This document shows, piece by piece, positions 4,550 through 24,544 of a stretch of DNA of 29,282 nucleotides. Position numbers and translations under genes: made by a program. How positions within the stretch are numbered: the first letter of the stretch is position 1; each line of letters starts with the position of its first letter. The stretch covers positions 1 through 29,282 of IMG/VR virus record IMGVR_UViG_3300030104_005206; one strand, written 5' to 3'. The notes beneath the pieces are model-generated. The model saw nothing but the letters and a program-made list of their open reading frames with translations, ran no database searches and was not told where the DNA came from. This DNA comes from a virus.

Positions 4550-4906
4550 ATGCTAAAGCCATTATACGCCTCTCTAAAGCACGAAGTAATTATCCGCCAG
4601 TATTTAGAGATGAACCTGGAATTCGTCGCGGAAATCGCACCTAAAGCACGATACAACAACTATCTAGAAGTTTATAAGATTGTGATAGAGTACCATAACA
4701 ACTACGGAAAAGGAAGAAACGACTACAACTACTGGGACTGGTTGATGGTTTTACCGATTAACGTAGCAATTTTAACAAATGGTTTTTTTGCAGCGATAGA
4801 AACAAAAACCAACGCACCGAAAATAAACTCTTATAAAACTTTATTAAATAACGCTTTAGAAGAAGTAGTAAAAAAAATAGAAAAACTGGACCCAGAAAAT
4901 GAATGA
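4550..4906 (+). CDS. Hypothetical middle protein
   Basis: A 118-residue protein, not recognised. It has a helical N-terminus, a Tyr/Asn-rich centre (KGRNDYNYWDWLMVLPINVAI) and a helical, Lys-rich C-terminus (EEVVKKIEKLDPENE). The stretch from about 64 to 80 is moderately hydrophobic but too short and interrupted to be a clear membrane segment. It is the first gene after a possible promoter and overlaps the sigma-like gene by 8 nt, so the two are co-translated. No domain can be named. Confidence 0.7.
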   Translation: MLKPLYASLKHEVIIRQYLEMNLEFVAEIAPKARYNNYLEVYKIVIEYHNNYGKGRNDYNYWDWLMVLPINVAILTNGFFAAIETKTNAPKINSYKTLLNNALEEVVKKIEKLDPENE

Positions 4907-6183: not shown

Positions 6184-6445
6184 ATTTATATGCGAATGTG
6201 GAGAACAAATCAAAGAACTACAAAAAGCCACAATAAAAGTAATAGACGGTAAAGTAAGAACAGAACAGGCGCAATGCAAATGCGGAAAATGGATGCAAGA
6301 ATTTGAAAAAGACTTCCAAGGCTTTCCTGGAATAATAAGAACAGAACCAACACTAGACAAAAAGCGGAATAAAATGTGGAAACAAACTAAAGAAAAACTA
6401 GTGGGAAAACACACCGCAAAGAACCTATTTAATAAAAACAAATAA
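6176..6445 (+). CDS. Zinc-ribbon hypothetical protein
   Basis: An 89-residue protein with ICECGEQI near residue 5 and CKCGKWMQEF near residue 34, two C-x-C-G knuckles that would form a single zinc ribbon. The C-terminal half is basic and includes FPGIIRTEP. Small ribbons of this kind are frequent in phages and usually bind nucleic acid or a protein partner; nothing more specific can be said. It is the last gene before the first late-type promoter box, which begins at 6429 inside its 3' end. Confidence 0.65.
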   Translation: MIKFICECGEQIKELQKATIKVIDGKVRTEQAQCKCGKWMQEFEKDFQGFPGIIRTEPTLDKKRNKMWKQTKEKLVGKHTAKNLFNKNK

Positions 6446-6460
6446 TTTCTATTATATACT
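6429..6460 (+). promoter_or_regulatory. Phage late promoter motif, copy A
   Basis: Upstream box ttAATAAAAA (6429-6438), 11-nt spacer, then TATTATATACT (6450-6460) immediately followed by the ATG at 6461. It aligns without gaps with four other copies. TTTCTATTATATACT is identical in copies A, B and C. It does not match the host TTG/TAnnTTTG consensus. Confidence 0.7.
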
Positions 6461-7711
6461 ATGAAGAAATCAATAAACGACATACACCTAAATGCAGACA
6501 ATCCGCGTTTAATAAAAGATGAAAAATTTCAACAGTTAGTTAAAAGCATTGAGGAGTTTCCTGAAATGCTAGAATTAAGACCCATTATAGTAGATGAAAA
6601 TATGGTAATACTGGGCGGGAATATGCGATACAGAGCCAGCGTAATAGCAGGATTAACAGAAGTACCCGTCAAGGTTGCAAAAGGACTAAGCGAAGAACAA
6701 AAGCAAGAATTTATAATAAAAGACAATGTAGGCTTTGGAGAATGGGACTGGGATATTTTAGGAAACGAATGGAACAACGAAAAACTGTTAGAGTGGGGGC
6801 TTGACGTTTGGCAAGACCCAGAAGACGAAGAACCTAAAGACGGTTTAATAGATGACGACTTTATACCAGAACCAGAAGAACCAAAAGTTAAAAAAGGCGA
6901 TGTGTGGATTCTAGGAGAACACAGACTGATGTGTGGCGATAGCACGAACGGAATGGATGTGACAAAACTAATGAACGGTGAAGAAGCAACCTTGTTATTT
7001 ACAGACCCACCATACGGAGTGTCTTATCAAGGAACAAACAACCCTGAAGGTGAAGAGTGGCAAATAATAGAAGGCGATAAGTTAAGAGGTGAACCATTGT
7101 ACGAATTACTGCACGGAGCTTTTAAACAGATGTACGACCACTCAATAAACAACCCTGCTCTTTATGTTTGGCACGCAAGTAGAAATCAAATGATATTTGA
7201 AAGCGCAATGAATGATGCAGGCTTTGAAGTTAAAGAACAATTAATATGGAACAAAGGAATGGTACTCAGCAGAAGCGACCATCACTGGGCGCACGAGCCT
7301 TGCTTTTATGCTAGGAAAAAAGGTTTTAATAACGAGTGGTATGGAGATAGAAAAAACAAAACAATTTTACAAGAAGGGAAAATAGAATTTGACAAATTAA
7401 AGAAAACAGAACTGGTACAAATAATAACTGCAATGCAAAGCGAAAGCACAGTCTGGGAAGTTAAAAGAGATAACGTAAGAACATACCTACATCCAACGCA
7501 GAAGCCAGTAGAACTTTGTATGCGAGCCTTACTAAACAACACACAATCAAAAGACGGAGTGCTTGATTTATTTGGTGGTTCAGGAAGCACTCTCATAGCT
7601 TCAGAAAAGCTTAATAGAAAATCATACACGATGGAACTAGACCCAAAATACGCAAGCATAATAGTAGAGCGATGGGAACAGTACACAGGACAAAGCGCAG
7701 TCAAGGAATAA
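6461..7711 (+). CDS. ParB-like nuclease domain fused to N6-adenine DNA methyltransferase
   Basis: A 416-residue two-domain protein. Residues 1-115 are ParB/Srx-like, with ADNPR at 12-16 and GGNMRYRA at 52-59, the characteristic ParB box. Residues 145-416 are a beta-class amino methyltransferase: DPPY at 182-185 is motif IV, and FGGSGS at 371-376 is the SAM-binding motif I, placed near the C-terminus as in N6/N4 beta-class enzymes. The acidic linker at 118-143 joins them. It probably methylates phage DNA against restriction; the ParB part may add DNA binding or CTP-dependent clamping. ParB-methylase fusions are widespread in phages. It is the first gene behind late motif A and starts directly at the motif end. 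Confidence 0.9.
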   Translation: MKKSINDIHLNADNPRLIKDEKFQQLVKSIEEFPEMLELRPIIVDENMVILGGNMRYRASVIAGLTEVPVKVAKGLSEEQKQEFIIKDNVGFGEWDWDILGNEWNNEKLLEWGLDVWQDPEDEEPKDGLIDDDFIPEPEEPKVKKGDVWILGEHRLMCGDSTNGMDVTKLMNGEEATLLFTDPPYGVSYQGTNNPEGEEWQIIEGDKLRGEPLYELLHGAFKQMYDHSINNPALYVWHASRNQMIFESAMNDAGFEVKEQLIWNKGMVLSRSDHHWAHEPCFYARKKGFNNEWYGDRKNKTILQEGKIEFDKLKKTELVQIITAMQSESTVWEVKRDNVRTYLHPTQKPVELCMRALLNNTQSKDGVLDLFGGSGSTLIASEKLNRKSYTMELDPKYASIIVERWEQYTGQSAVKE

Positions 7712-7810
7712 AAAAACCCCCTAAATAAAAAAAATAGAGGGTTTAATTAGGGAGCCTTATCATCACCCCCAAATAAAGAACGATGAACAAAGATAAAAAA
7801 AATAAATACA
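7712..7810. other. Noncoding gap before terminase, possible packaging-site region
   Basis: A 99-bp gene-free gap between the methyltransferase and TerS. It starts with an imperfect hairpin (7716-7744) and then carries C-rich and G-rich patches (AGGGAGCC, CACCCCC), which are unusual in this AT-rich genome. Phage cos or pac sites often sit just upstream of terminase genes, so this is a candidate, on position alone. Confidence 0.3.
7716..7744 (+). terminator. Weak hairpin terminator or processing stem
   Basis: AACCCCCTA and TAGAGGGTT pair with a single mismatch around an A-rich loop. The run following the stem is TTTAATTAG, not a long T tract, so termination would be inefficient. It would reduce rather than stop readthrough from the methyltransferase into the terminase genes. 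Confidence 0.4.
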
Positions 7811-8164
7811 ATGGACAAAAGTAGACACATAAAAAAAGAAACAATACTCCAAGCTTTAGAGAACAGCCTAGGAGTTGTGACAGTAGCGTGCAAACAGGCA
7901 GGAATTCCAAGAAGCACTTATTATAAATGGTTAAAAGAAGACGAAGACTTTAAAAAGGAAGTCAAAGAAATAGAAAACATAGCCCTAGACTTTGGAGAAA
8001 GTCAACTACACAAACAAATGAAGGAAGGAAGTACAGCAGCTACAATATTTTTCTTAAAAACAAAAGGAAAACGTAGAGGTTTTGTAGAGCGAAGCGAACT
8101 AGACCTAAGCTCAGGAAACGAACCAATTAAAATAAACGTTAATATAGATGGCGTTGATTATTGA
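7811..8164 (+). CDS. terS: Terminase small subunit
   Basis: A 117-residue protein of the phage small-terminase type that starts with an HTH: KKETILQALENSLGVVTVAC, then KQAGIPRSTYYKWLKEDEDF (residues about 9-46), as in phBC6A51-like subunits. A helical middle follows, then AATIFFLKTKGKRRGF (about 77-93), which resembles the segment that often follows the HTH in these proteins. TerS recognises the packaging site and regulates TerL in the packaging motor. It overlaps TerL by 17 nt. No late motif precedes it, so it is probably transcribed from copy A. Confidence 0.8.
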   Translation: MDKSRHIKKETILQALENSLGVVTVACKQAGIPRSTYYKWLKEDEDFKKEVKEIENIALDFGESQLHKQMKEGSTAATIFFLKTKGKRRGFVERSELDLSSGNEPIKINVNIDGVDY

Positions 8165-9464
8165 TACCAAATTTACTTATACACAAAAAAAAGCAATTGT
8201 TTATTTGTTTGACAACAGAACAACTGAGGTGTTATTCGGTGGAGCAGCAGGGGGTGGAAAATCGTGGGTAGGATGTGCCTGGTTAATTTTGATGTGTATG
8301 AAGCGACCGAATGTGCGATATTTAATGGGCAGAAGCAAACTGGACAGTTTAAAGAAAACAACACTTAATACTTTCTTTGAAGTTTGTCAACAATGGAAAA
8401 TAGAAGCAAACGTGCATTATAACTTTAACGCAAGCTCTAATATTATTAAATTTTATAACGGTTCAGAAATTATGTTAAAAGATTTATTTTTATATCCCAG
8501 TGATAGAAACTTTGACAGCTTGGGTAGTTTAGAAATAACGGGAGCATTTATAGACGAAGCAAACCAAATAACAGAAAAAGCAAAAAACATAGTAGCCTCC
8601 AGAATAAGATACAGACTCGATGAAAACAACTTAATACCCAAAATGCTAATGACGTGCAATCCTGCAAAGAACTGGACGTACACGCAATACTACAGACCCG
8701 CAAAAGAAGGCAAACAAAAACCTTATAGACAATTTATACAAAGCCTGGTAGATGATAATGAATACATTTCAAGCTTTTATAAAAAGCAACTGCAGACACT
8801 AGACGAACTAAGCAAACAACGTTTATTATTTGGGAACTGGGAATACGATGCAAGCAATGACGCGCTAATAGATTACGATGCAATTATAAACCTTTTTAAT
8901 CAGCAAGGAATAAAAGGAGAAAAGTACATAAGTTGCGATGTGGCGCGATTCGGAAGCGATAGAACGGTTATTTTATATTGGGAAGGTCTCACTATCAAGA
9001 AAATACAAACGTTGCTTAAAAGCGCTATAAATGACGTTGTGGACAAAGTAAGGCAAATACAACAAAACAACCAGGTGCCACTAAGAAACATAATAATTGA
9101 CGAAGACGGAGTAGGTGGTGGTGCAAAAGACTACCTAAGATGTACAGGATTTGTAAATAACGCGCGCCCTTTGAAAAGCGAAAACTACCAAAATTTAAAA
9201 ACACAATGTTATTATAAATTATCAGACTTAATAAACAAAGCTCAAATAGGTATAGAGTGCAAAGAAATAAACGTCAAGAATGACATAATAGAAGAGCTAG
9301 AACAGGTCAGAACAAAAGACGCGGACAAAGACAACAAACTGCAGATAATACCTAAAGACACAATCAAAGATATTATAGGACGTTCTCCAGACTATGCAGA
9401 CGCAATAGCAATGAGAATGTACTACGAAATAGACGGAAACTACGGTAAATATTTCATACAATAA
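8148..9464 (+). CDS. terL: Terminase large subunit (ATPase-nuclease)
   Basis: A 438-residue packaging motor protein, usual length for the family. Walker A is GGAAGGGKS at 31-39, and Walker B is AFIDEA at 133-138 with D136 and catalytic E137. MTCNP at 168-172 is the ATPase coupling motif. The RNase H-like nuclease domain carries D264 in SCDVARFGSD, D318/D320 in IIIDEDGVGGG and a C-terminal Asp in DYADAIAM. It cuts concatemers and pumps DNA into proheads. The start at 8148 overlaps TerS, giving coupled synthesis. A 40-bp gap follows that holds late motif B. Confidence 0.95.
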   Translation: MALIIDTKFTYTQKKAIVYLFDNRTTEVLFGGAAGGGKSWVGCAWLILMCMKRPNVRYLMGRSKLDSLKKTTLNTFFEVCQQWKIEANVHYNFNASSNIIKFYNGSEIMLKDLFLYPSDRNFDSLGSLEITGAFIDEANQITEKAKNIVASRIRYRLDENNLIPKMLMTCNPAKNWTYTQYYRPAKEGKQKPYRQFIQSLVDDNEYISSFYKKQLQTLDELSKQRLLFGNWEYDASNDALIDYDAIINLFNQQGIKGEKYISCDVARFGSDRTVILYWEGLTIKKIQTLLKSAINDVVDKVRQIQQNNQVPLRNIIIDEDGVGGGAKDYLRCTGFVNNARPLKSENYQNLKTQCYYKLSDLINKAQIGIECKEINVKNDIIEELEQVRTKDADKDNKLQIIPKDTIKDIIGRSPDYADAIAMRMYYEIDGNYGKYFIQ

Positions 9465-9472
9465 AAGCCAGT

Positions 9473-9504
9473 AAACTAAAAACTAATTTTTTCTATTATA
9501 TACT
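9473..9504 (+). promoter_or_regulatory. Phage late promoter motif, copy B
   Basis: Upstream box aaacTAAAAA (9473-9482), 11-nt spacer, TATTATATACT (9494-9504), then ATG at 9505. TTTCTATTATATACT (9490-9504) is identical to copies A and C. It would drive the tail gene cluster from 9505. Confidence 0.7.
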
Positions 9505-10146
9505 ATGAAGGTTAAAATAAAAAACAAAGGCAAAACAAAAGAATTTAAACTGATAGACAAGTGGACAGATGTCACACTGGAAAAGTGGGCAGAACTGGTA
9601 CGCTTAAATTCAGACAATAAAGGGGACGAAGCAATAGAAACAATAGAAGCTTTGTCTGACATACCAAAAAAGATAGTGGCGCAACTTTCAGTCGCGGACG
9701 TTGCCTTAATTTTACACAAGATAGCAAAAGCACAAAAGAAAACAGATGACCACTTAAAAAGAATTATAACAATAGAAGGCGAAGACTACGGATTCCATCC
9801 AGACCTGGAAGAGCTTACGATTGGTGAGTATGCAGACCTGGAGCATTTCCTCAAGCAAGGAGTGGAAAACACACTGCCAGAAATAATGGCTATTTTTTAT
9901 AGACCCATAACAGAACGAAAAGGGGACCTTTATACAATTGAAGCGTATGATGGAAACATAACAATGCGAGCAGAAAAAATGAAACAAATGTCAGCAGAAC
10001 AAGTACAAAGCGCTCTGGTTTTTTTTTGGACTTTAGGAAAAGAATTGTGGAAGACTATGCTATTGTGTTTAATGGCGGAGTCAGTGAAGACACTACAATC
10101 AGTGGTGAGGGAAAGTTTCAAGAAAGATGGGGGTGGTTTGGAGTGA
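9505..10146 (+). CDS. Putative tail assembly chaperone, upstream (G-like) frame
   Basis: A 213-residue protein, mostly helical and acidic/Lys-rich, consistent with a tail assembly chaperone. In siphophages this protein is made alone and as a longer fusion produced by ribosomal frameshifting. Near residue 172 the gene crosses a run of nine T residues (10019-10027) in codons gtt-ttt-ttt-tgg. A -1 slip joins it to the frame at 10026, giving a 260-residue product. Without the slip translation ends at 10146. The C-terminal stretch SALVFFWTLGKELWK is typical-looking for phage proteins of this position. The family call rests mainly on the frameshift arrangement. The gene follows late motif B directly. 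Confidence 0.5.
   Translation: MKVKIKNKGKTKEFKLIDKWTDVTLEKWAELVRLNSDNKGDEAIETIEALSDIPKKIVAQLSVADVALILHKIAKAQKKTDDHLKRIITIEGEDYGFHPDLEELTIGEYADLEHFLKQGVENTLPEIMAIFYRPITERKGDLYTIEAYDGNITMRAEKMKQMSAEQVQSALVFFWTLGKELWKTMLLCLMAESVKTLQSVVRESFKKDGGGLE
10018..10029 (+). promoter_or_regulatory. Candidate -1 ribosomal frameshift site (T9 run)
   Basis: GTTTTTTTTTGG: the T run (10019-10027) spans frame-0 codons gtt ttt ttt tgg. Frame -1 is open from here to 10286, and its first codon after the slip is ttg at 10026. A homopolymer T run satisfies the X-XXY-YYZ slippery rule. I did not find a clear strong downstream stem-loop by eye. Confidence 0.5.
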
Positions 10147-10286
10147 TGTACAGACTGACAAATGGTGAGATTGTGAATTTAGAAAGGATAACAAAATTAA
10201 AATTATTAGAATGTTTGACTTGGTTAAGTTACGAAACCGATTTGAACGAAGTAAAAAGCGTAAAACGAGATGTCAATAACGAATAA
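10026..10286 (+). CDS. Putative tail assembly chaperone, frameshift extension (T-like)
   Basis: The 86-codon frame is offset -1 from the gene at 9505 and overlaps it by 121 nt. It has no ATG at its beginning: the first codon is ttg, inside the T9 run, so the natural route is frameshifting. The residues around WGWFGVMYRLTNGEIV form a confident-looking folded patch that begins before the first in-frame ATG (10146-10148). An alternative is reinitiation at that ATG (TGATG junction), giving 47 residues. The C-terminal part is LLECLTWLSYETDLNEV. Its stop overlaps the next gene by 17 nt. The function as tail chaperone extension is inferred from the arrangement. Confidence 0.5.
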   Translation: MDFRKRIVEDYAIVFNGGVSEDTTISGEGKFQERWGWFGVMYRLTNGEIVNLERITKLKLLECLTWLSYETDLNEVKSVKRDVNNE

Positions 10287-10806
10287 AACATACAACAACA
10301 TAATAAACACCCTGAAGAATATCGGGAACAACCATAACCAGATAACGACTACAACAACAGGCGATATATGGGAAATTGACCTAAACAAAGAAACGCTGAT
10401 GCCTTTAATGCACATAACACCAGTTAATGTGACTGCAGGAGAAAGCGAACTAAACTACAACTTCCAAATTTTTATAATGGACTTAGTAAGTGAAAAAGAA
10501 AACTGGACAGAAGCAAACTATCAAAGCGCAGACTACCTAAGTAACGAACAACAAGTACTGAGTGACAACTTGCAAATTTGTGTCGATATAATAGGAATGC
10601 TAAGACACGGAGTACAACAGTCGCTAATACAAACTAACGACATTAACTCCCCTGTTTATTTCACAGACGGAGAACCGACTATAGAGCCGTTTCAAGAACG
10701 TTTTGATAATTTACTAGCAGGGTGGACCTTTAGCTTTACAGTAACGGTAATGAACGACTTCACAGCCTGCAATACACCAATGCAAGACGCAGGACAAGGA
10801 GAATGA
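10270..10806 (+). CDS. Putative tail terminator/completion-like structural protein
   Basis: A 178-residue protein. It alternates strands and helices: LMPLMHITPVNV, FQIFIMDLVS, EQQVLSDNLQICVDIIGMLR, then a C-terminal strand GWTFSFTVTVMND. This alpha-beta layout with a mid-protein helix resembles tail terminator proteins that cap the tail tube. I infer the role from fold pattern and position among tail genes, so confidence is modest. The start at 10270 overlaps the previous gene by 17 nt, and the stop overlaps the next small frame by ATGA. Confidence 0.4.
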   Translation: MSITNKTYNNIINTLKNIGNNHNQITTTTTGDIWEIDLNKETLMPLMHITPVNVTAGESELNYNFQIFIMDLVSEKENWTEANYQSADYLSNEQQVLSDNLQICVDIIGMLRHGVQQSLIQTNDINSPVYFTDGEPTIEPFQERFDNLLAGWTFSFTVTVMNDFTACNTPMQDAGQGE

Positions 10807-10871
10807 TAAAGTTTAAAATATGGAAAATAACAATACAATTAATACCACCAAAAATAACTTATAAGCTATGA
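10803..10871 (+). CDS. 22-residue microprotein
   Basis: A 22-codon frame (MIKFKIWKITIQLIPPKITYKL) spans the 61-bp gap between the genes at 10270 and 10868, with ATGA-type overlaps at both ends. It is basic and amphipathic. It may be translated simply as a coupling leader that lets ribosomes reach the next start. The function is unknown and it could be a chance frame. Confidence 0.35.
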   Translation: MIKFKIWKITIQLIPPKITYKL

Positions 10872-11224
10872 ATTATGATGACTTATTAGAAAAGCTAGAA
10901 GACATAAGTATTAAACTTGAGTCTTATAAAGACTATCCTCAAGCAGCAACTAACAACGCTAAAAGAGCTAGAAAATGGAAAGAAGAAAATGGTAGTACTT
11001 GTGGAACAAGAACTGGATGGACAAGGAGCTCACAACTCGCAGACAGAAAACCAATCTCAAGAGATACAATAGCACGAATGGCTTCTTTTAAGCGACACCA
11101 ACAGCATAAAGACGTACCCTATAGCGAAGGCTGTGGGGGCTTGATGTGGGATGCGTGGGGAGGTTCTAGCGGAGTAAATTGGGCGATAAGTAAATTAAAA
11201 CAAATAGACAAAGAAAAAAAATAA
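10868..11224 (+). CDS. Phage protein with AWGG-type C-terminal domain
   Basis: A 118-residue protein. Residues about 26-112 form a conserved-looking domain: AATNNAKRARKWKEENGSTC, GTRTGWTRSSQLADRKPISR, DTIARMASFKRHQQH and a Gly-rich end LMWDAWGGSSGVNWAISKL. From memory, phage structural proteins in Bacteroidota phages and cyanophages carry this module at their C-termini, here as a free-standing protein. The conserved WDAWGG and Cys residues suggest a compact fold, but its biochemical role is not known to me. It lies in the tail region and starts at ATG 10868 by ATGA overlap. Confidence 0.6.
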   Translation: MNYDDLLEKLEDISIKLESYKDYPQAATNNAKRARKWKEENGSTCGTRTGWTRSSQLADRKPISRDTIARMASFKRHQQHKDVPYSEGCGGLMWDAWGGSSGVNWAISKLKQIDKEKK

Positions 11225-11241
11225 CAATTAAAATTTAAACA

Positions 11242-11691
11242 ATGGCAGATTTAACAACCACAATAACAGAATCAGTGACGCTAAATGGTGCAGTCAGAGG
11301 TTCAACAAACATAATAACGACATCAGGAATAGATGACGTTCTAGAGCGAATTGTAACGTGTGCGCATAGCCAGGAAACGACAATCGCATTATTTGCAACA
11401 GCGAGTTATACTTCACCAGGAGCAATAGATGTGGAAAACACCGCATACGCTAGAGTTACAAACCTAAGCACAACAGACGCGGTACACTTGGCAATTGTAG
11501 GGACCGCTACAAATTACACAGTAAAACTAAGACCAGGCTCAAGTCATATGATTTTCAACGGTGAAGAAGTAATGGTAGCAGAAGCGGACACCTCTCCAGG
11601 ATTTGCAAGTTTTGAAGATGTAACCAAATTTATTATAAAACCAACTAGCGCAACAGACTGTCAAATAGAGTTATTTGTTGCACTTACATAA
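11242..11691 (+). CDS. Beta-rich virion structural protein
   Basis: A 149-residue Thr/Ala-rich protein, with alternating strands such as TIALFATASY, YARVTNL, VHLAIVG and TVKLRPGSSHMIF. No Cys-rich or catalytic motifs. The composition is typical of phage virion beta-sandwich proteins (head decoration, tail or adaptor). Its position between the AWGG-domain protein and the connector-type protein suggests a minor structural part. The stop overlaps the next ATG by TAATG. The exact role is not recognised. Confidence 0.55.
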   Translation: MADLTTTITESVTLNGAVRGSTNIITTSGIDDVLERIVTCAHSQETTIALFATASYTSPGAIDVENTAYARVTNLSTTDAVHLAIVGTATNYTVKLRPGSSHMIFNGEEVMVAEADTSPGFASFEDVTKFIIKPTSATDCQIELFVALT

Positions 11692-12284
11692 TGCAGAAAT
11701 TTAAAAACATAGAAAGATACCTGGAAAGCTTTGGTAGGTCAGTAATAAACAAAGCAAAAGGGAACCTTAAAAGAAGAGGTAAAGGAAACGGAAAACTAGA
11801 GTCTTCATTAAGGTCAGAAGTAAAAAAAGGAAACAAAGGTTATGAGGTGCAGTTTTTTATGGAGCCTTATGGAGCATTCGTAGATAAAGGAGTCCAAGGA
11901 ATAGGCGGTAGCTTTAAGTCAGAAAGTCAAGGTGGAAAAAGTAAGTACGCAGGAAAAAGCTTCTCAGGAAAACAACAGTACCTTAATTATAAAGGACAAA
12001 ACAAAAACAGTCCGTTCAAGTTTGGTAGTGGAAAAAGTCCAGGAAGCATTTATAAAGGAATAGGGTCGTTTATTAAAAAGAAGGGACTTCAGCCACGGAA
12101 CGAAAAAGGACAGTACCAGACTACGCTAGGACTTAAGATAGCAATGGTTAAAGTTTTATGGATTAAAGGAATTAAAGGAATTAGTTTCTTTCAAAAACCT
12201 TTAAGTTTAGGAATTAAAACCTTTAAAAAAGATTACACAGAAGCTCTGGAAAAAGATATAATAGCAATGCTAAAATTTAATTAA
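11691..12284 (+). CDS. HK97 gp10-like head-tail joining / tail completion protein
   Basis: A 197-residue basic protein. It shows the pattern of HK97 gp10-type neck/completion proteins: VINKAKGNLKRRGKGNGKLE at the start, then EVQFFMEPYGAFVDKGVQGI (residues about 51-70), a Gly/Ser/Lys loop-rich middle (SPGSIYKGIGSF) and a C-terminal GISFFQKPL segment with LEKDI near the end. Proteins of this type join head and tail or complete the tail end. It starts in a TAATG overlap with the upstream structural gene and is separated from the next gene by no bases. Confidence 0.6.
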   Translation: MQKFKNIERYLESFGRSVINKAKGNLKRRGKGNGKLESSLRSEVKKGNKGYEVQFFMEPYGAFVDKGVQGIGGSFKSESQGGKSKYAGKSFSGKQQYLNYKGQNKNSPFKFGSGKSPGSIYKGIGSFIKKKGLQPRNEKGQYQTTLGLKIAMVKVLWIKGIKGISFFQKPLSLGIKTFKKDYTEALEKDIIAMLKFN

Positions 12285-13826: not shown

Positions 13827-13827
13827 T

Positions 13828-16593
13828 ATGAGTGTACAATTAGTAGTTTATCCGCAAGAGTTTAATGGCTCAACAACCACCAACGTGTGGTACACAGCAC
13901 TAGCAGACCCGTTCTTTACAAGCGTACCTGCAACAGCAACTGTCACCCTTCCTGGCGGAACAGTACCACTTGCATACAACGCTTTAAATTCAGCAACGCC
14001 AAATACGAACTGGCAAAGCTTCGCATACGGAAGCACGACACCACCATCATACACAGGAGCTCAAGTAAGATTTTATGGACACGCAAATGATGGAACCTGG
14101 GATGGTTACTCAGGAATTTATACAGTTTTAACAAGCTTAATACCTGGTGAAGACTATTTGATTTATTTCACTATTTCAGCTCCAAGCTTTCCAAATACAA
14201 ACAGTTTATGGAAAATAGGAATACAAGGCAGTAATAATATTATTTCTTTTAACACTTTAGGGGGTGGAGTTTATCAAGACGTACCGTGTCAATACGGACC
14301 CACTAACTGGTGTCCGAATGCTTTCCAATTTACAGCGCAAAACACAGCTGAAGTATTAGCAATAACTTATCAAAGTCCAGACGTTAGTTTCACTCCAGAA
14401 ATGTACGGTATGCGAGTACAGCGACTAACAAAAAACTACTTGATAGCAAAAGGACAAGAAATTCTAGACTTATATGAAGAAACAAATATACCGCTTTCTT
14501 TATCAGTTGATGATTTTCAGAATGCAGGCGAAAAGGTGCAATCTTATAGTAAGTCTTTTAATATTCCTGCCACAAAGCACAATAATAAGGTGTTCGATAA
14601 TATTTTTGAAATAACCAGAGGAACCACTGCTTCTAAATTCAACCCTTATAAACAAACCCCGTGTATTTATAAACAAAACGGAATTACAATATTTCAAGGA
14701 TTCCTAAAACTTATAAACATACAAGAGAAAAATGGTGAAACAAGCTATACTGTTAATTTATTTTCAGAAGCGGTAGCATTAGCGGATATTTTAAAAACGC
14801 TTAATTTTAGTGATTTAGATTTTAATGAATTACAACACGACTACAACAGAACCAATATACAAAGTAGTTGGTATAAAACAACAGGAATAGAACTGACAAA
14901 TCCACTACCTGCAACGACATCACTAGCTTATAGCACAGACGTAGGAAACCTAACACACACGAACGTTTTAATTTATCCTTTTGTGGACTGGACAGGGACC
15001 ATTAAAAGGTTTGCAGACACAGCAGACATAGCAAATGGAGCTACAGCAGGACAGCCTGCAATTTCAAGCTTAGAAGACGTTTATAGACCCTGGATACAAG
15101 TCAGGTACATAATAAGAAAAATACTAGCACAGACAGGCGTAGAATTTAGCTACACTTCGCAATTTTTCGACTCGACCGAATTCAAGAATTTATTTATGGA
15201 CTTCAACTGGGGTGCAGACAACTCACCGACAAACTTTAGTCAGGCAGGTCAGGCAAACTTCCAAGGAGCAACACAAACAATACCTGCGTCAGCAAGTACA
15301 CTTGTAGCCTTCCCAAATAACAACACCTTCCCTCTTCAGGCAGGATACAACCCTGCAACAGGAAGGCTAACCGCCTCACAACACGGAACAACTTATGCAA
15401 TAAGCTCAACAGTTACTATAAAACTGAATGGCAATTCAACCTTTGCGCAAATGAACTCCATAAGACTCGTGTGGTTTAGCTCGACAGGATTCCCAACTTA
15501 CGTAATGTCAAACCAACAAATAATAGGAGCCACAAATGATGTGCTTTCTTTTACTTTGCAGTCTCCTGCAGGAATGAGTGGGGTGCAACAAAATAGTTAT
15601 TTTGCAGTAGAAATACAGAATAACAGTGGTAGCACAATGACAGTACAAAACCCGTCGTTTATTTATGGAACAGTTTCAGGAGTTGCAGTAACTGGCGGTA
15701 GTTTATTAAACACTTTGCGAGGTGAAATGAAGCAATGGGACTTTTTTAAAGGAATTGTTAATATGTTTAATCTGGTTATACTTCAAGATGAAACGAATCC
15801 AAAGAATTTAATAATTGAGCCGTATGACACGATATTTAACACTACCCACCAAACCCTTGACTGGACGCATAAAGTGGACGCAGAAGAGCTTAAAATGCAA
15901 CCTATGAAGCTAAAACAATCTACTTTATTTCAATACAAGGAAGATAAAGACTATCCTTTCTCAGTTTATAAGAACGCAACAGGAGAATACAACTACGGAA
16001 GCTTTGAATGGACAGTACCTGAATACACTAACGTGAGAGGTGAAGGAAAAGTCGAAGCTTCACCTTTTGCAGCAACACTTGTAAAACCAATTTTTGATGA
16101 TACACCAGACTTAATAGCGCCTGTAATTTATGGAGCAAATGAAGATGGAACAGAATTTAAAGGAATAAACAACAAGCCTAGAATTTTATACAGAACCTCT
16201 TCTTCTCCAACTTTACTAACGCAAACTACTTATTTCACACCACAGCAAAACGGAGTGACAGGAACAAACGCGACAGGATACTCTTTATTTAGTCATACAG
16301 AATCGGTACCACCATCACCATCAAGCAATGATTTAAACTTTGGAGCTTGCCAATTATTAATAGGTTCACCTTCGCCAAATAACTTATTTAGCTTATACTA
16401 CTCAAGTTATTTCTACGAACTTTATAACCCAGATACAAAGACGGTAAAATTAAAAGCACTTTTGACAGAAAAAGACGTTAGTAGTTTTGATTTCACAAAT
16501 AGGATTCTTATAGAAAATCGAGAATTCAGAGTTAATAAAATAAATTATAAACCCGACTCTTTGTCTTCAATTGAGTTAATATTAATACCTTAA
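13828..16593 (+). CDS. Large tail hub/tip protein
   Basis: A 921-residue tail protein. Residues 1-205 are Thr/Ser-rich beta strands resembling a carbohydrate-binding or fibre-like domain (FPNTNSLWKIGIQG region). Residues about 212-310 are hub-like: ILDLYEETNIPLSLSVDDFQ, then QSYSKSFNIPATKHNNKVF, the 'fS-sf-lPgTk-N---F' pattern seen in tail baseplate/hub proteins of Bacteroidota phages, followed by FQGFLKLINIQEKNGETSY. The C-terminal third includes GSLLNTLRGEMKQWDFFKGI and a final strand-rich end. It probably forms the tail tip or its attachment to receptor-binding proteins. The assignment is by pattern, not by motif search. Confidence 0.6.
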   Translation: MSVQLVVYPQEFNGSTTTNVWYTALADPFFTSVPATATVTLPGGTVPLAYNALNSATPNTNWQSFAYGSTTPPSYTGAQVRFYGHANDGTWDGYSGIYTVLTSLIPGEDYLIYFTISAPSFPNTNSLWKIGIQGSNNIISFNTLGGGVYQDVPCQYGPTNWCPNAFQFTAQNTAEVLAITYQSPDVSFTPEMYGMRVQRLTKNYLIAKGQEILDLYEETNIPLSLSVDDFQNAGEKVQSYSKSFNIPATKHNNKVFDNIFEITRGTTASKFNPYKQTPCIYKQNGITIFQGFLKLINIQEKNGETSYTVNLFSEAVALADILKTLNFSDLDFNELQHDYNRTNIQSSWYKTTGIELTNPLPATTSLAYSTDVGNLTHTNVLIYPFVDWTGTIKRFADTADIANGATAGQPAISSLEDVYRPWIQVRYIIRKILAQTGVEFSYTSQFFDSTEFKNLFMDFNWGADNSPTNFSQAGQANFQGATQTIPASASTLVAFPNNNTFPLQAGYNPATGRLTASQHGTTYAISSTVTIKLNGNSTFAQMNSIRLVWFSSTGFPTYVMSNQQIIGATNDVLSFTLQSPAGMSGVQQNSYFAVEIQNNSGSTMTVQNPSFIYGTVSGVAVTGGSLLNTLRGEMKQWDFFKGIVNMFNLVILQDETNPKNLIIEPYDTIFNTTHQTLDWTHKVDAEELKMQPMKLKQSTLFQYKEDKDYPFSVYKNATGEYNYGSFEWTVPEYTNVRGEGKVEASPFAATLVKPIFDDTPDLIAPVIYGANEDGTEFKGINNKPRILYRTSSSPTLLTQTTYFTPQQNGVTGTNATGYSLFSHTESVPPSPSSNDLNFGACQLLIGSPSPNNLFSLYYSSYFYELYNPDTKTVKLKALLTEKDVSSFDFTNRILIENREFRVNKINYKPDSLSSIELILIP

Positions 16594-16594
16594 A

Positions 16595-17485
16595 ATGAGC
16601 AGAACCTACTTAACAGGACAAAACTTAATGCCTGACAACATAGACCCGACAGGACAAGTTACATTCACAGATGGAAAAACAAAAGGTTTAATACCCAATC
16701 AAGAAACGTGTCTAGCTTACGGTTTTACTTACGACCAGGACAGCGGAACGTGTCGAGCCTTTCGTTTAAACACCAATTTAAATCAGCAATTCTCAGCAGC
16801 TTCCAACTCAAACCTAGGACCAAAAAATTTATTAGAACTTGGTACTAATTATACAAGAGTAAACGGTGTAGCAAACGAAGTGCAGGGACAGTCAAACTGC
16901 GGGTTTGTTTCTGGAACAAATAACGAAATTTATAACAGCATAGACAACGCAAGTGTTGTAGGACAAAACGGAAAAGCGACAAGACCTACAGAATTCGTTA
17001 TAGGTGGTGGTTCGAATAGCCTAGGGTACACTTCAGGCGAAGAAACAATTTATCAATACGTAGACAGGCAAATGAGCGTCATCCATTTATCGTGCGTTAC
17101 AACAGACAACACCACGACTAGAATGACAATGAATGGTGACCTTACAAACTACATAAACATAAGACCAAACTCAATAGTAGGGTACGAAATTTATATAACG
17201 CGTTTAGAAGTTGGTGGTACTTCAGGAACAGCAGGCGATTATTCCTATAGGAACCGCAAGGGTTGTATACAGATTGACAACAGCTACAATATGGACATAG
17301 ATGTAGGTTTTACCAGAAACATCGCAAAAGTTGGTGGAGTAAACGGGACCTTTACAGAGGTCGATGTTTCAACCTCGGACAACAAAGCGTGGACGATAGA
17401 AGTAAGCGACAGAAACAACGTAATAAACGTCTGGAGCGCTTCAATTTACCTCCACGAAACAATACTAACATCAGTAACCTTTTAA
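16595..17485 (+). CDS. Tail fibre/adhesin-like protein
   Basis: A 296-residue protein. Residues about 60-150 contain repeated short motifs built on N-x-V-x-G-x-x-N: VNGVANEVQGQSN, FVSGTNNEIY, SVVGQNG, VIGGGSNS, resembling YadA-like or fibre head repeats that form trimeric beta-rolls. A Cys pair (C39 and C53) lies near the N-terminus. The C-terminal 130 residues are beta-rich (VGYEIYITRLEVGG … AWTIEVSDRN). It is likely a trimeric tail fibre or tip adhesin. It is placed between the tail hub and the tape measure gene. Confidence 0.6.
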   Translation: MSRTYLTGQNLMPDNIDPTGQVTFTDGKTKGLIPNQETCLAYGFTYDQDSGTCRAFRLNTNLNQQFSAASNSNLGPKNLLELGTNYTRVNGVANEVQGQSNCGFVSGTNNEIYNSIDNASVVGQNGKATRPTEFVIGGGSNSLGYTSGEETIYQYVDRQMSVIHLSCVTTDNTTTRMTMNGDLTNYINIRPNSIVGYEIYITRLEVGGTSGTAGDYSYRNRKGCIQIDNSYNMDIDVGFTRNIAKVGGVNGTFTEVDVSTSDNKAWTIEVSDRNNVINVWSASIYLHETILTSVTF

Positions 17486-17495
17486 AAAATAAGAT

Positions 17496-19424
17496 ATGGC
17501 AGAATCAATGGAATTTAACTTAAAAGCGAACATAGGCTCCGTAGCAAAAGATATGGAAAAACTAGAAACCGCTACAAAAGGTGTAGAACAAGCATTCATA
17601 GACGCAAACAAAAAGGTAGAAGAACAAGAAGCGATTCTAAGCTTACTAGAAAAAGAACTTATAAAACTGCAAAGAAAGCAAAATGAATTAGGCAAAGGAA
17701 CCTATCAAGACAGTCTAACTGGAACAACAAAAAAACTAGAAGCGCAGAAATTAGAAATAAAAGACCAAAAGGGAGCGCTTAAAGATTTAAAAGGAGAACA
17801 AAAAAAGGCAGGTGCTGAACTAAAGAAATACAATGACGCACAAAAGGAACAGGAAAAGCTAGTAAAAGACGGTATCGGGAACTTTAGAATTATGGGTGTT
17901 TCTTTAAATGACGTGTCGGCTTCTTTTAGCAAAATAATACCTACAGCAAAGGCAATGTTTGGTACAATAAAAGCGGGGATTTTAAGCACAGGAATAGGTG
18001 CTCTTCTTATTGCTATTGGTTCTTTATTAACATACTTTACAAGCACAAAAAAAGGAGCAGATGAACTAGCGGTTGTTTTTGCCAAAGTAGGAGCAGCAGT
18101 AGACGTTATAAAAGATAGAATTTCAAAACTAGGGGGTGCAATTTTAAAAGTTTTTTCTGGCGATATAAAAGGCGCAATGAACGACTTTAAAGATGCAACA
18201 ACTGGAGTCATAGATGAAATAAAAGAAGAGGTCAGAGTAATGGGTGAACTAGAAATAGCAACCCAAAAATTAAGGGACCTGGAGATGGACTTCGCAATTC
18301 AAAAAGCTAAGACAAGACAAGAAATAGAAAAAGCTAGACTTGCAGCAGAAGATGAGTCACTATCAGCAGAAGAGCGACTAACCAATTTAAAAAGAGCTCT
18401 AGAACTAGAAGAAGAAACAACAAATAAGGAGTTAGACCTAGCGCGTGAAAAAGTGAGAATTCAAGAAATGCAAATGGCACAGTCAGAAAATATGGTAGAG
18501 GATGAGCAAAAACTTGCAGACTTAAAAGTAGCTTTAATAGAAAAAGAAACAGCTTCAGTAAAAATGCGAAGAAGAGTAATGACAGAAGTTAATACTTTTG
18601 AACGTGAAATAGCAGCAGAAAAACAAAAAAGAATAGATGATGAAAAAGCTGCACAAGACGAAAAAGACGCAGCAGCAGCAAAAAAGAAGGAAGAAGATGA
18701 AACTGCAAGGCTTGAACAAAAAGAAAAGGAACAGGCAGAATACGAAACTTTAAAAGAACTGCAAAATGAAAGGATTATAGATGAACTAGACACCTTGAGG
18801 GAAAAAGCGTTAAAAGAACTAGAAATAGAACACAAAAAAAACTTAGAGTTACACGCAGACAATGAAAACTTCGCAGACATAAAAATAGAGCTTGACAAAA
18901 AACTAGCAAGAGAAAAAAAGAAGATAGATGATACTACCTTTGCAGATGAAAAAGCAACACGAAAATTAACGTTAGATGACGCACAAAAAGGCTTTGACAG
19001 TATGGCAAGCATACTAGGAAAAGAAAGCAAAGCGGGCAAAGCAGCAGCGATAGCTTCAGCTACAATACAAACTTACAAAAGTGCTACTTCCGCATATTCA
19101 GCGATGGCAGGAATACCAGTTGTAGGTCCAGGATTAGGAGCTATAGCAGCAGGAGCAGCGATAGTTGCAGGATTTAAAAATATACAAGCAATAAGGTCAG
19201 AAAGCACGACACCGCCTACAACTGATGATACAGACTTAAACGCAGACGTAAGTACAGCAGTAGAAAACGCAGAAAGCGCACTACCTGCACCTGAAATGAT
19301 GTCTGGAGCTTTCACTTTATCTGGTGGACAAGAACCTGACCCTTTAAAAGCCTTTGTAGTGACAGAAGAAATTAATGACGGACAAGAACAACTAGCGGAC
19401 ATAAAAAGACAATCAACACTTTAA
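17496..19424 (+). CDS. Tape measure protein
   Basis: A 642-residue tail length-ruler protein. It has coiled-coil N-terminus (residues 1-125, highly charged Glu/Lys), a hydrophobic stretch GILSTGIGALLIAIGSLLTY at 161-180, an extended Glu/Lys/Ala-rich coiled coil (about 235-470), and a C-terminal segment (SKAGKAAAIASATIQTYKSA then a Gly/Ala-rich AIAAGAAIVAGF) that is very characteristic of phage tape measures. It fills the tail tube and can enter the host membrane at infection. At about 1.5 angstrom per residue this predicts a tail of the order of 95 nm, as an upper estimate. The gene starts after a short 10-bp gap. Confidence 0.85.
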   Translation: MAESMEFNLKANIGSVAKDMEKLETATKGVEQAFIDANKKVEEQEAILSLLEKELIKLQRKQNELGKGTYQDSLTGTTKKLEAQKLEIKDQKGALKDLKGEQKKAGAELKKYNDAQKEQEKLVKDGIGNFRIMGVSLNDVSASFSKIIPTAKAMFGTIKAGILSTGIGALLIAIGSLLTYFTSTKKGADELAVVFAKVGAAVDVIKDRISKLGGAILKVFSGDIKGAMNDFKDATTGVIDEIKEEVRVMGELEIATQKLRDLEMDFAIQKAKTRQEIEKARLAAEDESLSAEERLTNLKRALELEEETTNKELDLAREKVRIQEMQMAQSENMVEDEQKLADLKVALIEKETASVKMRRRVMTEVNTFEREIAAEKQKRIDDEKAAQDEKDAAAAKKKEEDETARLEQKEKEQAEYETLKELQNERIIDELDTLREKALKELEIEHKKNLELHADNENFADIKIELDKKLAREKKKIDDTTFADEKATRKLTLDDAQKGFDSMASILGKESKAGKAAAIASATIQTYKSATSAYSAMAGIPVVGPGLGAIAAGAAIVAGFKNIQAIRSESTTPPTTDDTDLNADVSTAVENAESALPAPEMMSGAFTLSGGQEPDPLKAFVVTEEINDGQEQLADIKRQSTL

Positions 19425-19428
19425 AAAT

Positions 19429-19460
19429 CAAATAAAAACTAATTTAATATATTATATACT
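19429..19460 (+). promoter_or_regulatory. Phage late promoter motif, copy D
   Basis: Upstream box CAAATAAAAA (19429-19438), 11-nt spacer CTAATTTAATA, then TATTATATACT (19450-19460) immediately before the ATG at 19461. The upstream box is identical to copy C. It sits just after the tape measure gene and would drive the head genes. Confidence 0.65.
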
Positions 19461-20183
19461 ATGCCTTGCAAAAAATGTGAAAACGGAAAATACAAATGGG
19501 GTGAACGTGGCGAATGCCAGTACGACACCAAAGAAGAGTGTAAACAAGCAAATCCAGAGCAACACTATGAAGAAGAAACAAAGAACACTAAAATAGTGGA
19601 GCTTGTAATTTCAGAAGACGCACAGGACCTCGCAATAGACGCTATAAGCTTAGTGTCCAATCCTGCGATAGAAGAAAATATGGTTTATATGAGTAAAGAA
19701 AAAAACAACTTGACTCTAGCAAAAGTAGATGAAGAGAAAAAAGAGATAATCAGCCCCGCTCTAATACCAAATAAACAGATATACCGATATGACGCTTCTA
19801 CAGATTCAGATTATTATGTTTACTTTAGTCCTGCAACAGTAAAAGAAGCAGCTTATTTATACCTTAAAAACAACAACCATCACAAAGCAACCTATGAACA
19901 CCAACAAAGAGTGTCGGGTGTTTTAACAGTGGAGTCGTGGATTATAGAAGACCCGAAAAAAGACAAAGCAAGTCTTTACGGATTCTCACTTCCAAAAGGC
20001 ACCTGGATGGTGAAAATGAAAGTAACAAATGAGGACCTCTGGGAAGAAATAAAAAGCGGAGCTGTGCGCGGTTTGAGCATAGAGGGGTACTTCACAGATA
20101 AGATGGAAACACTATCAGAAAGACAAGCGACAGACCAAGAGATTCTGTCTGCCTTACTTTCAATAATTAAAGAAATCAAATAA
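19461..20183 (+). CDS. XkdF-like prohead protease
   Basis: A 240-residue protein. It starts with a Cys-containing cap (PCKKCENGKYKWGERGECQY, residues 2-21) also seen on some phage prohead proteases. The core matches XkdF-type serine proteases: VYFSPATVKEAAYLYLKNN (residues about 114-132), ATYEHQQ with the likely catalytic His (139-145), then VESWIIED, KGTWMVKMKVTNEDLWEEIK and GAVRGLSIEG, whose Ser is the candidate nucleophile. Such proteases trim the scaffold and capsid N-terminus during maturation. It directly precedes the scaffold and capsid genes, as expected. It has its own late-type promoter. Confidence 0.75.
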   Translation: MPCKKCENGKYKWGERGECQYDTKEECKQANPEQHYEEETKNTKIVELVISEDAQDLAIDAISLVSNPAIEENMVYMSKEKNNLTLAKVDEEKKEIISPALIPNKQIYRYDASTDSDYYVYFSPATVKEAAYLYLKNNNHHKATYEHQQRVSGVLTVESWIIEDPKKDKASLYGFSLPKGTWMVKMKVTNEDLWEEIKSGAVRGLSIEGYFTDKMETLSERQATDQEILSALLSIIKEIK

Positions 20184-20208
20184 ATAATTAATTAATCTAT
20201 TATATAAA
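20177..20208 (+). promoter_or_regulatory. Phage late promoter motif, copy E (with leader and SD-like site)
   Basis: Upstream box CAAATAAATA (20177-20186), 11-nt spacer, TATTATATAAA (20198-20208). Unlike the other copies the start codon is 15 bases further on, and the leader carries AAAGGA (20209-20214) 8 nt before the ATG at 20223. This copy separates the promoter role of the motif from any translation role. Confidence 0.6.
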
Positions 20209-20222
20209 AAAGGACCTAAACT

Positions 20223-20924
20223 ATGGACATAAAAGAGCAAATCAAAGTAGCGCTAGGAATTACAAAAGAAGTAAAACTAGCTTTTCAAGCAAAAACAGAA
20301 GATGGTACAATCGTAGTGTCAACAGCTGAAGAATTAGAATCTGGTGTAGACATCAGTGTTATGACTGAAGATGGAACCACAATACCTCTACCACCAGGAA
20401 CGTACAAACTAGACACAGGTGTAAGCTTCCGTGTAGAAGAAGAAGGAATAGTAAGTGAGCTTATAGAATCTGAAACAGAAGAAGAAGATACGCCAAAAGA
20501 AGAAGAAATGGCAAAAGAAGATGAAGATAAAGATAAAGAAGACTATGAAGAAGAAGCTGACGTTGGTGACTGGGAAGGTATGGAGAAACGTATAAAGAAC
20601 CTAGAGGACGCTGTCGCTGACTTAAAAGCAGACCACGAAGAAGCAGGCTTAGATGAAGAAGAAGAAATAGAAGAAGAATTGTCAGCACCAGGGACCAATC
20701 CTAAAACAATTAAAACAACTGAAGTCAAAGAATTTTCAGCAGAAGACTATGAAGCTTTAAAGGCAGAAAACGAAAAGTTAAAACTAGACTTAGCAAAATC
20801 ACCTGCAGGAACAGACTTAAACACGAATAAATTTAGTGAAGAAAAAGACTTCATAGCTTTATCAAAAAAAGAAATACAAAAGCTTTCAAAAAAAGAAAGA
20901 TTTTTATATAACTTAAATAAATAA
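20223..20924 (+). CDS. Capsid scaffolding protein
   Basis: A 233-residue, very acidic protein. A small beta-rich N-terminal part (residues 1-78) is followed by a Glu/Asp/Lys-rich region (about 79-160) with a coiled-coil patch (MEKRIKNLEDAVADLKADHE). The C-terminal end is basic and helical (LSKKEIQKLSKKERFLYNL), as in scaffolds where a C-terminal helix binds the capsid. It lies between the protease and the capsid genes with its own promoter. No enzymatic motif. The acidic run gives spurious reverse-strand frames and should not be read as a repeat. Alternative: a minor capsid-associated protein. Confidence 0.65.
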   Translation: MDIKEQIKVALGITKEVKLAFQAKTEDGTIVVSTAEELESGVDISVMTEDGTTIPLPPGTYKLDTGVSFRVEEEGIVSELIESETEEEDTPKEEEMAKEDEDKDKEDYEEEADVGDWEGMEKRIKNLEDAVADLKADHEEAGLDEEEEIEEELSAPGTNPKTIKTTEVKEFSAEDYEALKAENEKLKLDLAKSPAGTDLNTNKFSEEKDFIALSKKEIQKLSKKERFLYNLNK

Positions 20925-20952
20925 TAATATTAATACTAAAATAATTTAAACT

Positions 20953-21864
20953 ATGGCATTCACAGTCACACAACCAAACTTTAATGGTAAGGCAAGCGGA
21001 TACTACATATCGGCAGCCTTAAATGACGCTAAATCGTTAGACTATATGACGGTTCTAGAAAACGTTAAATACAAAATGAATATACAGACTATGGCAGGTA
21101 GTGGTCTAGTTGCAGACAACATTTGTAACTACACTTCAGCGGGTAACCTTGCCTTGCAAGAAAAAACTATTACGCCAAAATCGTTAATGGTTAACTTGGA
21201 TATTTGTAAGGAAACATTATTAACTTCTTACGAAGCCTTACAGATGAAGGCAGGTAGAACAGCAGGTGCGCCTGTTTCTTTTGAAGACTACGTAATTTCT
21301 TATGTAGGTGAAATAATAGCAGACAGTACTGAAACTTCAATCTGGCAAGGAACTGGAGCAGCGGGGAACTTCAACGGTTTCTTAGGCGCAGCTACTGGTT
21401 GGTTATTACCTGGAGTAGATGGAACAGTTGTCCAAGACGCAGCGTCTGGAGCTTATACAGCAGGAAACATTATAGCAAATTTACAAAGTTTATCAGCAGC
21501 TATTCCTTCAGCAGTTTATGGAAAAGAAGACCTTCACATTTATATGAATATGAAGACTTATAGATTTTATATTTCTGCGGTTTCGACTTTAGGATATGTA
21601 AACGCTTATAATATGAATGGCGACTACGAGCCAGTATTCGAAGGTGTAAAAATAGCACCAGTTTACGGTTTACCTGACAATCAAATGGTAGCAGCACTTA
21701 AGGGTGATTTATTCTTTGGTACTGACTTATTAAGCGACTCAGGAAGCTCAATAACGCTTTTAGATATGGCTGACAAAGACGGGTCAGATAACATCCGTTT
21801 AATTGCAAGATACACAGCAGGAACACAAACTGGAATCGGAGCAAACATTGTAAGACAATCATAA
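20953..21864 (+). CDS. Major capsid protein (HK97-fold)
   Basis: A 303-residue protein that follows the scaffold, as usual. It has a strand/helix mix with GGLV-type core features and the C-terminal hook: FEGVKIAPVYGLPDNQMVAA, followed by LKGDLFFGTDL and DNIRLIARYTAGTQTGIG, as in HK97-fold capsids of Bacteroidota phages. The short N-terminal arm begins MAFTVTQPNF, with no long delta domain, consistent with the separate scaffold. The start lies 28 bp after the scaffold stop with AAACTATG context and a degenerate late-like box TATTAATACT about 15 nt upstream. It is followed by a hairpin at 21878-21908. Confidence 0.8.
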   Translation: MAFTVTQPNFNGKASGYYISAALNDAKSLDYMTVLENVKYKMNIQTMAGSGLVADNICNYTSAGNLALQEKTITPKSLMVNLDICKETLLTSYEALQMKAGRTAGAPVSFEDYVISYVGEIIADSTETSIWQGTGAAGNFNGFLGAATGWLLPGVDGTVVQDAASGAYTAGNIIANLQSLSAAIPSAVYGKEDLHIYMNMKTYRFYISAVSTLGYVNAYNMNGDYEPVFEGVKIAPVYGLPDNQMVAALKGDLFFGTDLLSDSGSSITLLDMADKDGSDNIRLIARYTAGTQTGIGANIVRQS

Positions 21865-21877
21865 TAAAACAATTAAC

Positions 21878-21908
21878 GAAGATGGGGGGTTTTAACACCT
21901 CCCACTTC
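21878..21908 (+). terminator. Hairpin after the capsid gene (attenuator-like)
   Basis: GAAG-A-TGGGGGGT pairs with ACCTCCCACTTC across a short TTTAAC loop, with one bulged A and one mismatch. About a dozen base pairs in total, strong for this AT-rich genome. Only short T runs follow, so it may partly terminate or protect the capsid mRNA 3' end, leaving less of the next gene. Its position inside 67 bp of noncoding sequence supports function. Confidence 0.5.
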
Positions 21909-21931
21909 ATAACTTTTAAAACACGATAACT

Positions 21932-22510
21932 ATGGCTTGTACAGCACTTACGAAGGGTAGAGGGTTAGACTGTAATCGTGTCTCGGGTGGCGTCAAATTT
22001 TTATATTTCTCAGTTTATGACAATTTTGCAAGGTCAGACTGGGCTTATTCAACAGGGACGGAAGGCGAGATAGATACAATAAACTTTCAAACTTCAACTA
22101 TATACAGATACACGGTACCAAGAGGTTCAACCAACGCAAACGAAACAATAACAGGCTCTACTGAAAACGGGACCTTGTTCTACACGCCTTCGGTTGCTAT
22201 GGTTTTAAACCGTTTAACAAAAGAAGACCAAAATGAGATACGCCTATTAGGACAGACTCAAGTTAGAATTTTCGCACAACTAAATGCAACGTTAACAAAC
22301 GGACACGATGTAATTATTTGTCTAGGAATGCACAACGGAATGAGTATGAATGCAGGGACTGCAGATAGCGGTGTTGCCTTCGGGGACAGAAATGGTTACA
22401 CTCTCAACTTTGACGGCTTGGAGGCGCAACCATTTGCAATGCTTGAAGATTATACTACAAATCCATTCGACAATAGTGGAATTACAGGATTAAGTATAGT
22501 AACATCATAG
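21932..22510 (+). CDS. Virion structural protein, major tail tube candidate
   Basis: A 192-residue beta-rich protein with the composition of a tail tube or other major virion protein. Motifs include ALTKGRGLDCNRVSGGVKFL, EIDTINFQTSTIYRYTVPRG and MVLNRLTKEDQNEIRLLGQT, with a C-terminal LDGLEAQPFAML-like stretch (FDGLEAQPFAMLEDY) and ending ITGLSIVTS. The location right after the capsid gene and before a strong terminator implies high expression. The assignment to tail tube is a memory-based guess; it could also be a capsid decoration protein. It is preceded by a hairpin and ATG in context AACTATG. Confidence 0.5.
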   Translation: MACTALTKGRGLDCNRVSGGVKFLYFSVYDNFARSDWAYSTGTEGEIDTINFQTSTIYRYTVPRGSTNANETITGSTENGTLFYTPSVAMVLNRLTKEDQNEIRLLGQTQVRIFAQLNATLTNGHDVIICLGMHNGMSMNAGTADSGVAFGDRNGYTLNFDGLEAQPFAMLEDYTTNPFDNSGITGLSIVTS

Positions 22511-22553
22511 AAACCTCTCTCCACATTAGTGGGTTTTTATATATTTTCTGAAG

Positions 22554-22586
22554 AAAGACGACAAAACGCTGTCGTCTTTTTTTTTT
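22554..22586 (+). terminator. Strong rho-independent terminator
   Basis: AAAGACGACA (22554-22563) pairs perfectly with TGTCGTCTTT (22570-22579) across a six-base loop, and the T tract runs to 22586 (ten Ts). This is the clearest intrinsic terminator in the window. It ends the capsid transcription unit, and late motif C begins 5 bp later. A weaker CCAC-ATTA-GTGG stem followed by GTTTTT lies at about 22521-22537 just upstream. Confidence 0.85.
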
Positions 22587-22590
22587 AATG

Positions 22591-22622
22591 CAAATAAAAA
22601 GGATTAATTTCTATTATATACT
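22591..22622 (+). promoter_or_regulatory. Phage late promoter motif, copy C
   Basis: CAAATAAAAA (22591-22600), 11-nt spacer GGATTAATTTC, TATTATATACT (22612-22622), then ATG at 22623. It lies 5 bp after a strong terminator, the arrangement expected of a true promoter starting a new unit. Confidence 0.75.
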
Positions 22623-24542: not shown

Positions 24543-24544
24543 CT

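Follow-up and report, generated by a model that had tools for sequence, protein, structure and literature searches.

What is a 32-bp element doing five times in a small phage genome, mostly fused to a start codon, and what reads it? The window, that is the whole stretch of DNA analysed (29,282 nucleotides, IMG/VR record IMGVR_UViG_3300030104_005206), is a complete phage genome, probably with a flavobacterium-like host. Positions 1-99 are directly repeated at 29184-29282, which corresponds to a molecule of 29,183 bp, either closed or with terminal repeats. The collection classed the record as linear despite this 99-bp terminal repeat. The sequence-only reading of the window took the five copies for phage late promoters, an observation that held and an interpretation that is partly supported. 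It overlooked a sigma factor gene at 4899-5462, with which an unexplained motif becomes a predicted sigma/promoter regulon. From sequence comparisons, we consider it highly likely that the copies, here P1 to P5, are late promoters of this phage-encoded ECF-like sigma factor. The features are listed below, with scores from a weight matrix described further on.

4899..5462, + strand: gene of an ECF-like sigma factor, 187 aa, predicted reader of P1 to P5, from profile and predicted fold
6429..6460, + strand: candidate promoter P1, with box, spacer and TATTATATACT; adjoins the ATG of the ParB-N/N6-N4 methyltransferase gene 6461-7711; matrix score 30.4
9473..9504, + strand: candidate promoter P2, with the box variant AAACTAAA; adjoins the ATG of gene 9505-10146; matrix score 26.9
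19429..19460, + strand: candidate promoter P3; adjoins the ATG of the head-maturation protease gene 19461-20183 (Pfam Peptidase_S78_2); matrix score 30.6
20177..20208, + strand: candidate promoter P4; followed by a leader of about 15 nt, the scaffold-like gene 20223-20924 and the capsid gene 20953-21864; matrix score 30.3
22554..22586, + strand: intrinsic terminator directly upstream of P5, stem AAAGACGACA/TGTCGTCTTT plus a T-run to 22586, read by eye
22591..22622, + strand: candidate promoter P5; adjoins the ATG of the virion-protein gene 22623-23327; matrix score 32.7
28909..28939, + strand: candidate host-type early promoter, TTG-N20-TATGTTTG, from a pattern match and its position before the early block (28983 on)

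The gap-free alignment of the five copies was exact, with the anatomy described earlier: an A-rich box (10 nt) is separated by 11 nt from TATTATATACT, which is TATTATATAAA in the 20177 copy. The 15-mer TTTCTATTATATACT, reported as shared by three copies, occurs exactly three times. The boxes at 6429 (TTAATAAAAA) and 9473 (AAACTAAAAA) are each two positions away from CAAATAAAAA. The sequence also bears out that four copies run directly into an ATG and that only in the 20177 copy does it come later. Inspected by eye, the stretch beside the 22591 copy is a genuine terminator, though absent from the calls of a mechanical terminator scan.

All five copies lie downstream of the sigma gene. The early block extends from 28983 across the terminal repeat to about 6074, with the sigma gene in its later part. 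The run headed by P1 comprises the methyltransferase and the small and large terminase subunits, to 9464. P2 stands at the head of a tail-type run to 19424, with a tape-measure match at 17496-19424, P3 before the protease, P4 before scaffold and capsid, and P5 before a run of virion protein and portal (24524-26407). Among the gene labels given earlier, methyltransferase, protease and virion protein were supported by matches; the gene at 9505 matched only a family of unknown function, and the scaffold at 20223 had only a weak match. At the corresponding sites in relatives, the P2 box variant is also present before the homologous MKVK gene, the MPC.. protein start of the P3 gene is kept, and the P4 equivalent has leaders of 9-38 nt. 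The host-type promoter pattern had two matches on the + strand, against 0.46 expected, which is weak evidence alone. An early protein of 172 aa (1605-2123) has an HTH-like stretch by eye and may be another early regulator; it had no PHROG match and no meaningful Pfam match.

The genome has an A+T content of 64%, and the copies might be nothing more than chance similarity in A/T-rich intergenic sequence. This explanation was refuted. The 9-mer TATTATATA occurs five times on the + strand of the window and never on the − strand; the expectation on + is 0.47 (order-3 Markov model), and none of 500 simulations gave five. A capsid search yielded 80 loci of viral contigs as relatives, and 28 related records were scanned with the pattern YAAAYRAA-N13-TATTATATA, allowing one mismatch. 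Presence in related phages was one of the tests that the sequence-only reading had set itself, and the two-box element was found in 28 of 28 related records, on a single strand within each (85 matches vs 2 for the reversed pattern). It precedes homologous genes there and stands at the heads of late runs, as in the window. The upstream box CAAAYRAA lies at a fixed 21 nt in 102 of 112 sites of relatives. A weight matrix was built from these 112 unique sites, with similar sites down-weighted and the window left out. With this matrix, P1 to P5 scored 26.9-32.7 bits, the next site in the window 13.2, and the best of 300 order-3 simulated genomes 19.8. De novo motif finding in the window alone gave 126.7 vs 106-110 in shuffled controls, only modestly higher because few upstream regions exist, so that the relatives were essential. 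A generic sigma-70 promoter scan of the window was uninformative.

The product of the gene at 4899-5462 weakly matched the sigma factor PHROG 1740 (E 3e-4). The ECF superfamily model TIGR02937 was matched by 26 of 26 aligned members, the window sigma scoring 35.9 bits (E 5.5e-9), below the curated cut-off of 42.9. In the AlphaFold2 model, helices span residues 2-95 and 127-184, a loose linker covers 84-125, and the second domain has four helices. The predicted fold, sigma2-linker-sigma4 without sigma3 or sigma1.1, is the ECF (group 4) layout. By Foldseek and VIA-align, the window sigma grouped with the ECF sigmas SigE of E. coli, SigL and SigD of M. tuberculosis, and SigW. Its second domain could be laid onto SigE region 4 bound to −35 DNA with a Z of 10.3 and an rmsd of 1.9 over 67 residues. 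The Foldseek E-values were weak (best 8e-3), as they would be if the two domains have no defined position towards each other. A sequence search against solved structures gave chance matches only, and fold comparison was needed; searches of cultured phages with the window sigma and with the tail-region protein gave no matches. The modelled fold and the profile both speak for placing the protein in the ECF family, with a profile score formally below the curated cut-off. The gene very probably encodes an ECF-like sigma that reads P1 to P5. A related record, G034 (locus L304), carries two clearly different sigma copies (698-1252 and 29148-29705), which perhaps have different promoter sets.

The sigma gene accompanies the element across the relatives. 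It was present in 25 of the 28 records found by capsid, the three without it being records of 20-23 kb, and in 22 of 22 capsid-found records of at least 24 kb, once as a partial end piece only. A search by motif alone gave 13 records of 27 kb or more, of which 12 had it; the exception, 39 kb long, has a single isolated site. Within the window's own group, sigmas 90-100% identical to that of record G010 pair with TATAATATA at each of the five sites retrieved by a search blind to the core, and those of other clades with TATTATATA. G010-like genomes have further −10 variants, TATATTATA and TATCATATA, at other sites.

Useful cultured relatives came from portal, capsid and terminase searches. The Nonlabens phages P12024S and P12024L have homologous portal and capsid proteins (27-29% identity) and, like the window, a sigma-like gene before the terminase and an ATG-adjoining two-box element before late genes. 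They differ in the sigma (gp33), in the −10 (CGTTAATA, which accompanies gp33 in P12024S) and in a box-to-−10 spacing about 3 nt shorter. The P12024S element, AAAACAAA-N10-TTTYCGTTAATA, adjoins late-gene ATGs and is kept in the relatives of this phage, whose record has no promoters annotated. P12024S gp33 is a different sigma and matched Pfam Sigma70_r2 above the cut-off. A profile comparison with the window sigma aligned 45 columns, weakly, at a probability of 17%; the two are taken as homologous because both match the same sigma model. The cultured flavobacterial phages 11b, phi10:1 and P12002L, which have related terminases, gave no match to the ECF model, and the motif was absent from them: their best matrix scores (15.3, 19.1 and 15.6) were within the range of the simulated genomes. 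Phage 11b has host-type TATATTTG elements, with leaders. The sole match in a genome collection, the phage contig L203 (PAPR01000004.1) of the window's family, lies in the alphaproteobacterial bin Pseudooceanicola SP158; it is probably misbinned and was rejected as a host clue.

Three −10 types go with three sigma types, a comparison confounded by common descent. Co-occurrence and co-divergence are an association, likewise confounded by descent, with a sigma-less set of three genomes; each sequence comparison points the same way.

For the start site, offsets were counted from T1, the first T of the core. Among 240 unique sites of relatives, the ATG lies at T1+11 in 115 and elsewhere in 119, with none nearby in 6. 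Fusion to the start codon, as first described, is thus common but not intrinsic to the element, the ATG being elsewhere in about half of the homologous sites. The base at T1+11 is an A in 90% of the 119 sites without an ATG there, which makes T1+11 the likely transcription start, give or take one or two bases. The same proteins, with MPC.. or MIQA.. starts, were seen both with offset 0 and with offsets 11-13, so the adjoining ATG is a real start codon. With a start at T1+11, mRNAs from the direct sites would be leaderless, and such sites probably yield leaderless mRNAs. Leaderless late mRNA is well supported, if unproven, by inference from base conservation and ATG offsets. In F. johnsoniae, leaders exceed 10 nt in 87% of predicted transcripts (PMC6847099); host mRNAs mostly have such leaders, unlike the predicted phage late mRNAs.

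The frequent contact with a start codon could also mean that the element is an A-rich, Kozak-like enhancer of translation initiation and no promoter, the more so as A residues upstream of the start aid translation in Flavobacterium (PMC6847099). We regard this as very improbable: the 119 ATGs away from T1+11 are nearly all 1-38 nt downstream while the core is unchanged, paired boxes a constant distance apart, with a spacer that varies, are promoter-like, and the element occurs only at the heads of gene runs, once right after a terminator. These sequence features indicate that the element is a promoter and not a start-codon motif. A different doubt concerns the exact start of a promoter read by the phage sigma, which may lie a few bases down- or upstream, in which case the mRNAs would not be truly leaderless. 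Distances do differ among sigmas, phiEco32 starting 6-8 bp past its element, and host promoters start 4-5 nt past the −7 element. A larger distance, however, would put the start beyond the ATG at the 115 direct sites, where conserved N-termini mark the ATGs as true; a shorter one would leave a leader of one or two bases at most, and the A at T1+11 is kept even where there is no ATG. A shifted start is therefore unlikely, though the least unlikely of the alternatives.

The promoter might instead be read by host polymerase with a primary or alternative host sigma and a phage activator, the sigma-like protein doing something else; many phages do use activators and not a sigma. The primary-sigma promoter of Bacteroidota, TTTG / TAnnTTTG (PMC6847099), has two boxes like the window element, yet neither box matches. 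The mismatch to the host consensus noted earlier was confirmed, TATTATAT differing from the host −7 element TAnnTTTG at 3 of 6 near-invariant positions (PMC6847099). Moreover, the related flavobacterial phages without a sigma match are also without the element, and the −10 shifts along with the phage sigma. We judge a host sigma with an activator improbable, and prefer recognition by the phage sigma.

In this preferred reading, the host's RNA polymerase, carrying the primary sigma of the host, would transcribe the early block, including the phage sigma gene. The phage sigma would then bind the host core polymerase, its region 4 reading the upstream box CAAATAAA at about −32 and its region 2 reading TATTATATA at about −11 to −3. 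Transcription would start about 2-3 nt past the 9-mer, at the conserved A. In four of the window's five promoters this A opens the start codon, so that their mRNAs would be leaderless or nearly so. By this prediction, host polymerase acts first on the early block, followed by the sigma and then by P1 to P5. With less assurance, we think it fairly likely that a large marine phage lineage, probably on Bacteroidota, runs its late programme via an ECF-like sigma, that most late operons begin leaderless, and that co-evolution of sigma and promoter has produced three or more specificities (TATTATATA, TATAATATA, CGTTAATA).

T4 late promoters (TATAAATA, read by gp55) likewise combine an A/T-only −10 before late genes with a phage sigma. 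They consist of a single TATAAATA with no −35 box, whereas in the window element another conserved box stands at a fixed distance. Phage sigmas with their own middle/late promoters are known from phiEco32 (gp36) and 7-11 (gp47) (PMC8948821). There, as predicted for the window, a phage sigma sends the core polymerase of the host to a small number of middle/late promoters, and the consensus changes between related phages with diverged sigmas, as in the window group. A recurrent element before middle/late but not early genes, a feature of this kind, is present in the window, and the 7-11 promoters are two-box, like the window element. Differences are the enterobacterial hosts, the consensus (tAATGTAtA or GTAAtg-(16)-aCTA), and starts that lie 6-9 bp from the element and do not coincide with the start codon. 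The match to this kind is strong, as a likeness in working and not as family membership by sequence.

The sequence-only reading had proposed an undescribed phage-specific promoter class. A late class is strongly supported, but there is precedent in phiEco32 and 7-11. A phage sigma with cognate late promoters is already known as a kind; new are the lineage, a two-box promoter made up almost wholly of A and T, and the regularity with which this promoter is fused to the start codon. A literature search, with most subscription journals outside it, found no description of this promoter/sigma system for Bacteroidota phages and no transcription study for this marine phage group.

This large marine phage group seems to carry a late-gene switch of its own. 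This provides a concrete and cheaply testable gene-timing model for a widespread, mostly uncultured marine phage group; as the cultured phages P12024S/L share the design, testing needs no new isolate. The leaderless mRNAs would also offer a natural test case for leaderless translation where the bacteria make no use of Shine-Dalgarno signals. The predicted sigma/promoter pairs, being unlike the host's own, could serve as parts for Bacteroidota genetics.

Two further observations were made in the relatives. A palindrome, TGAWTAATCA (often TTGATTAATCAA), lies just 3' of the first late promoter in relatives such as L123, L142 and L203; it is absent from the window and may be an operator. Of the 106 leaders in relatives that reach 20 nt or more, 60 contain it. 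The adhesin-site promoter of seven loci (L031, L033, L035, L036, L038, L044 and L053) has the core TATTATATTATATATG. Its box lies about 17 nt before a later TATTATATA match, and with about 4-5 nt of extra TATTA it deviates from the family spacing.
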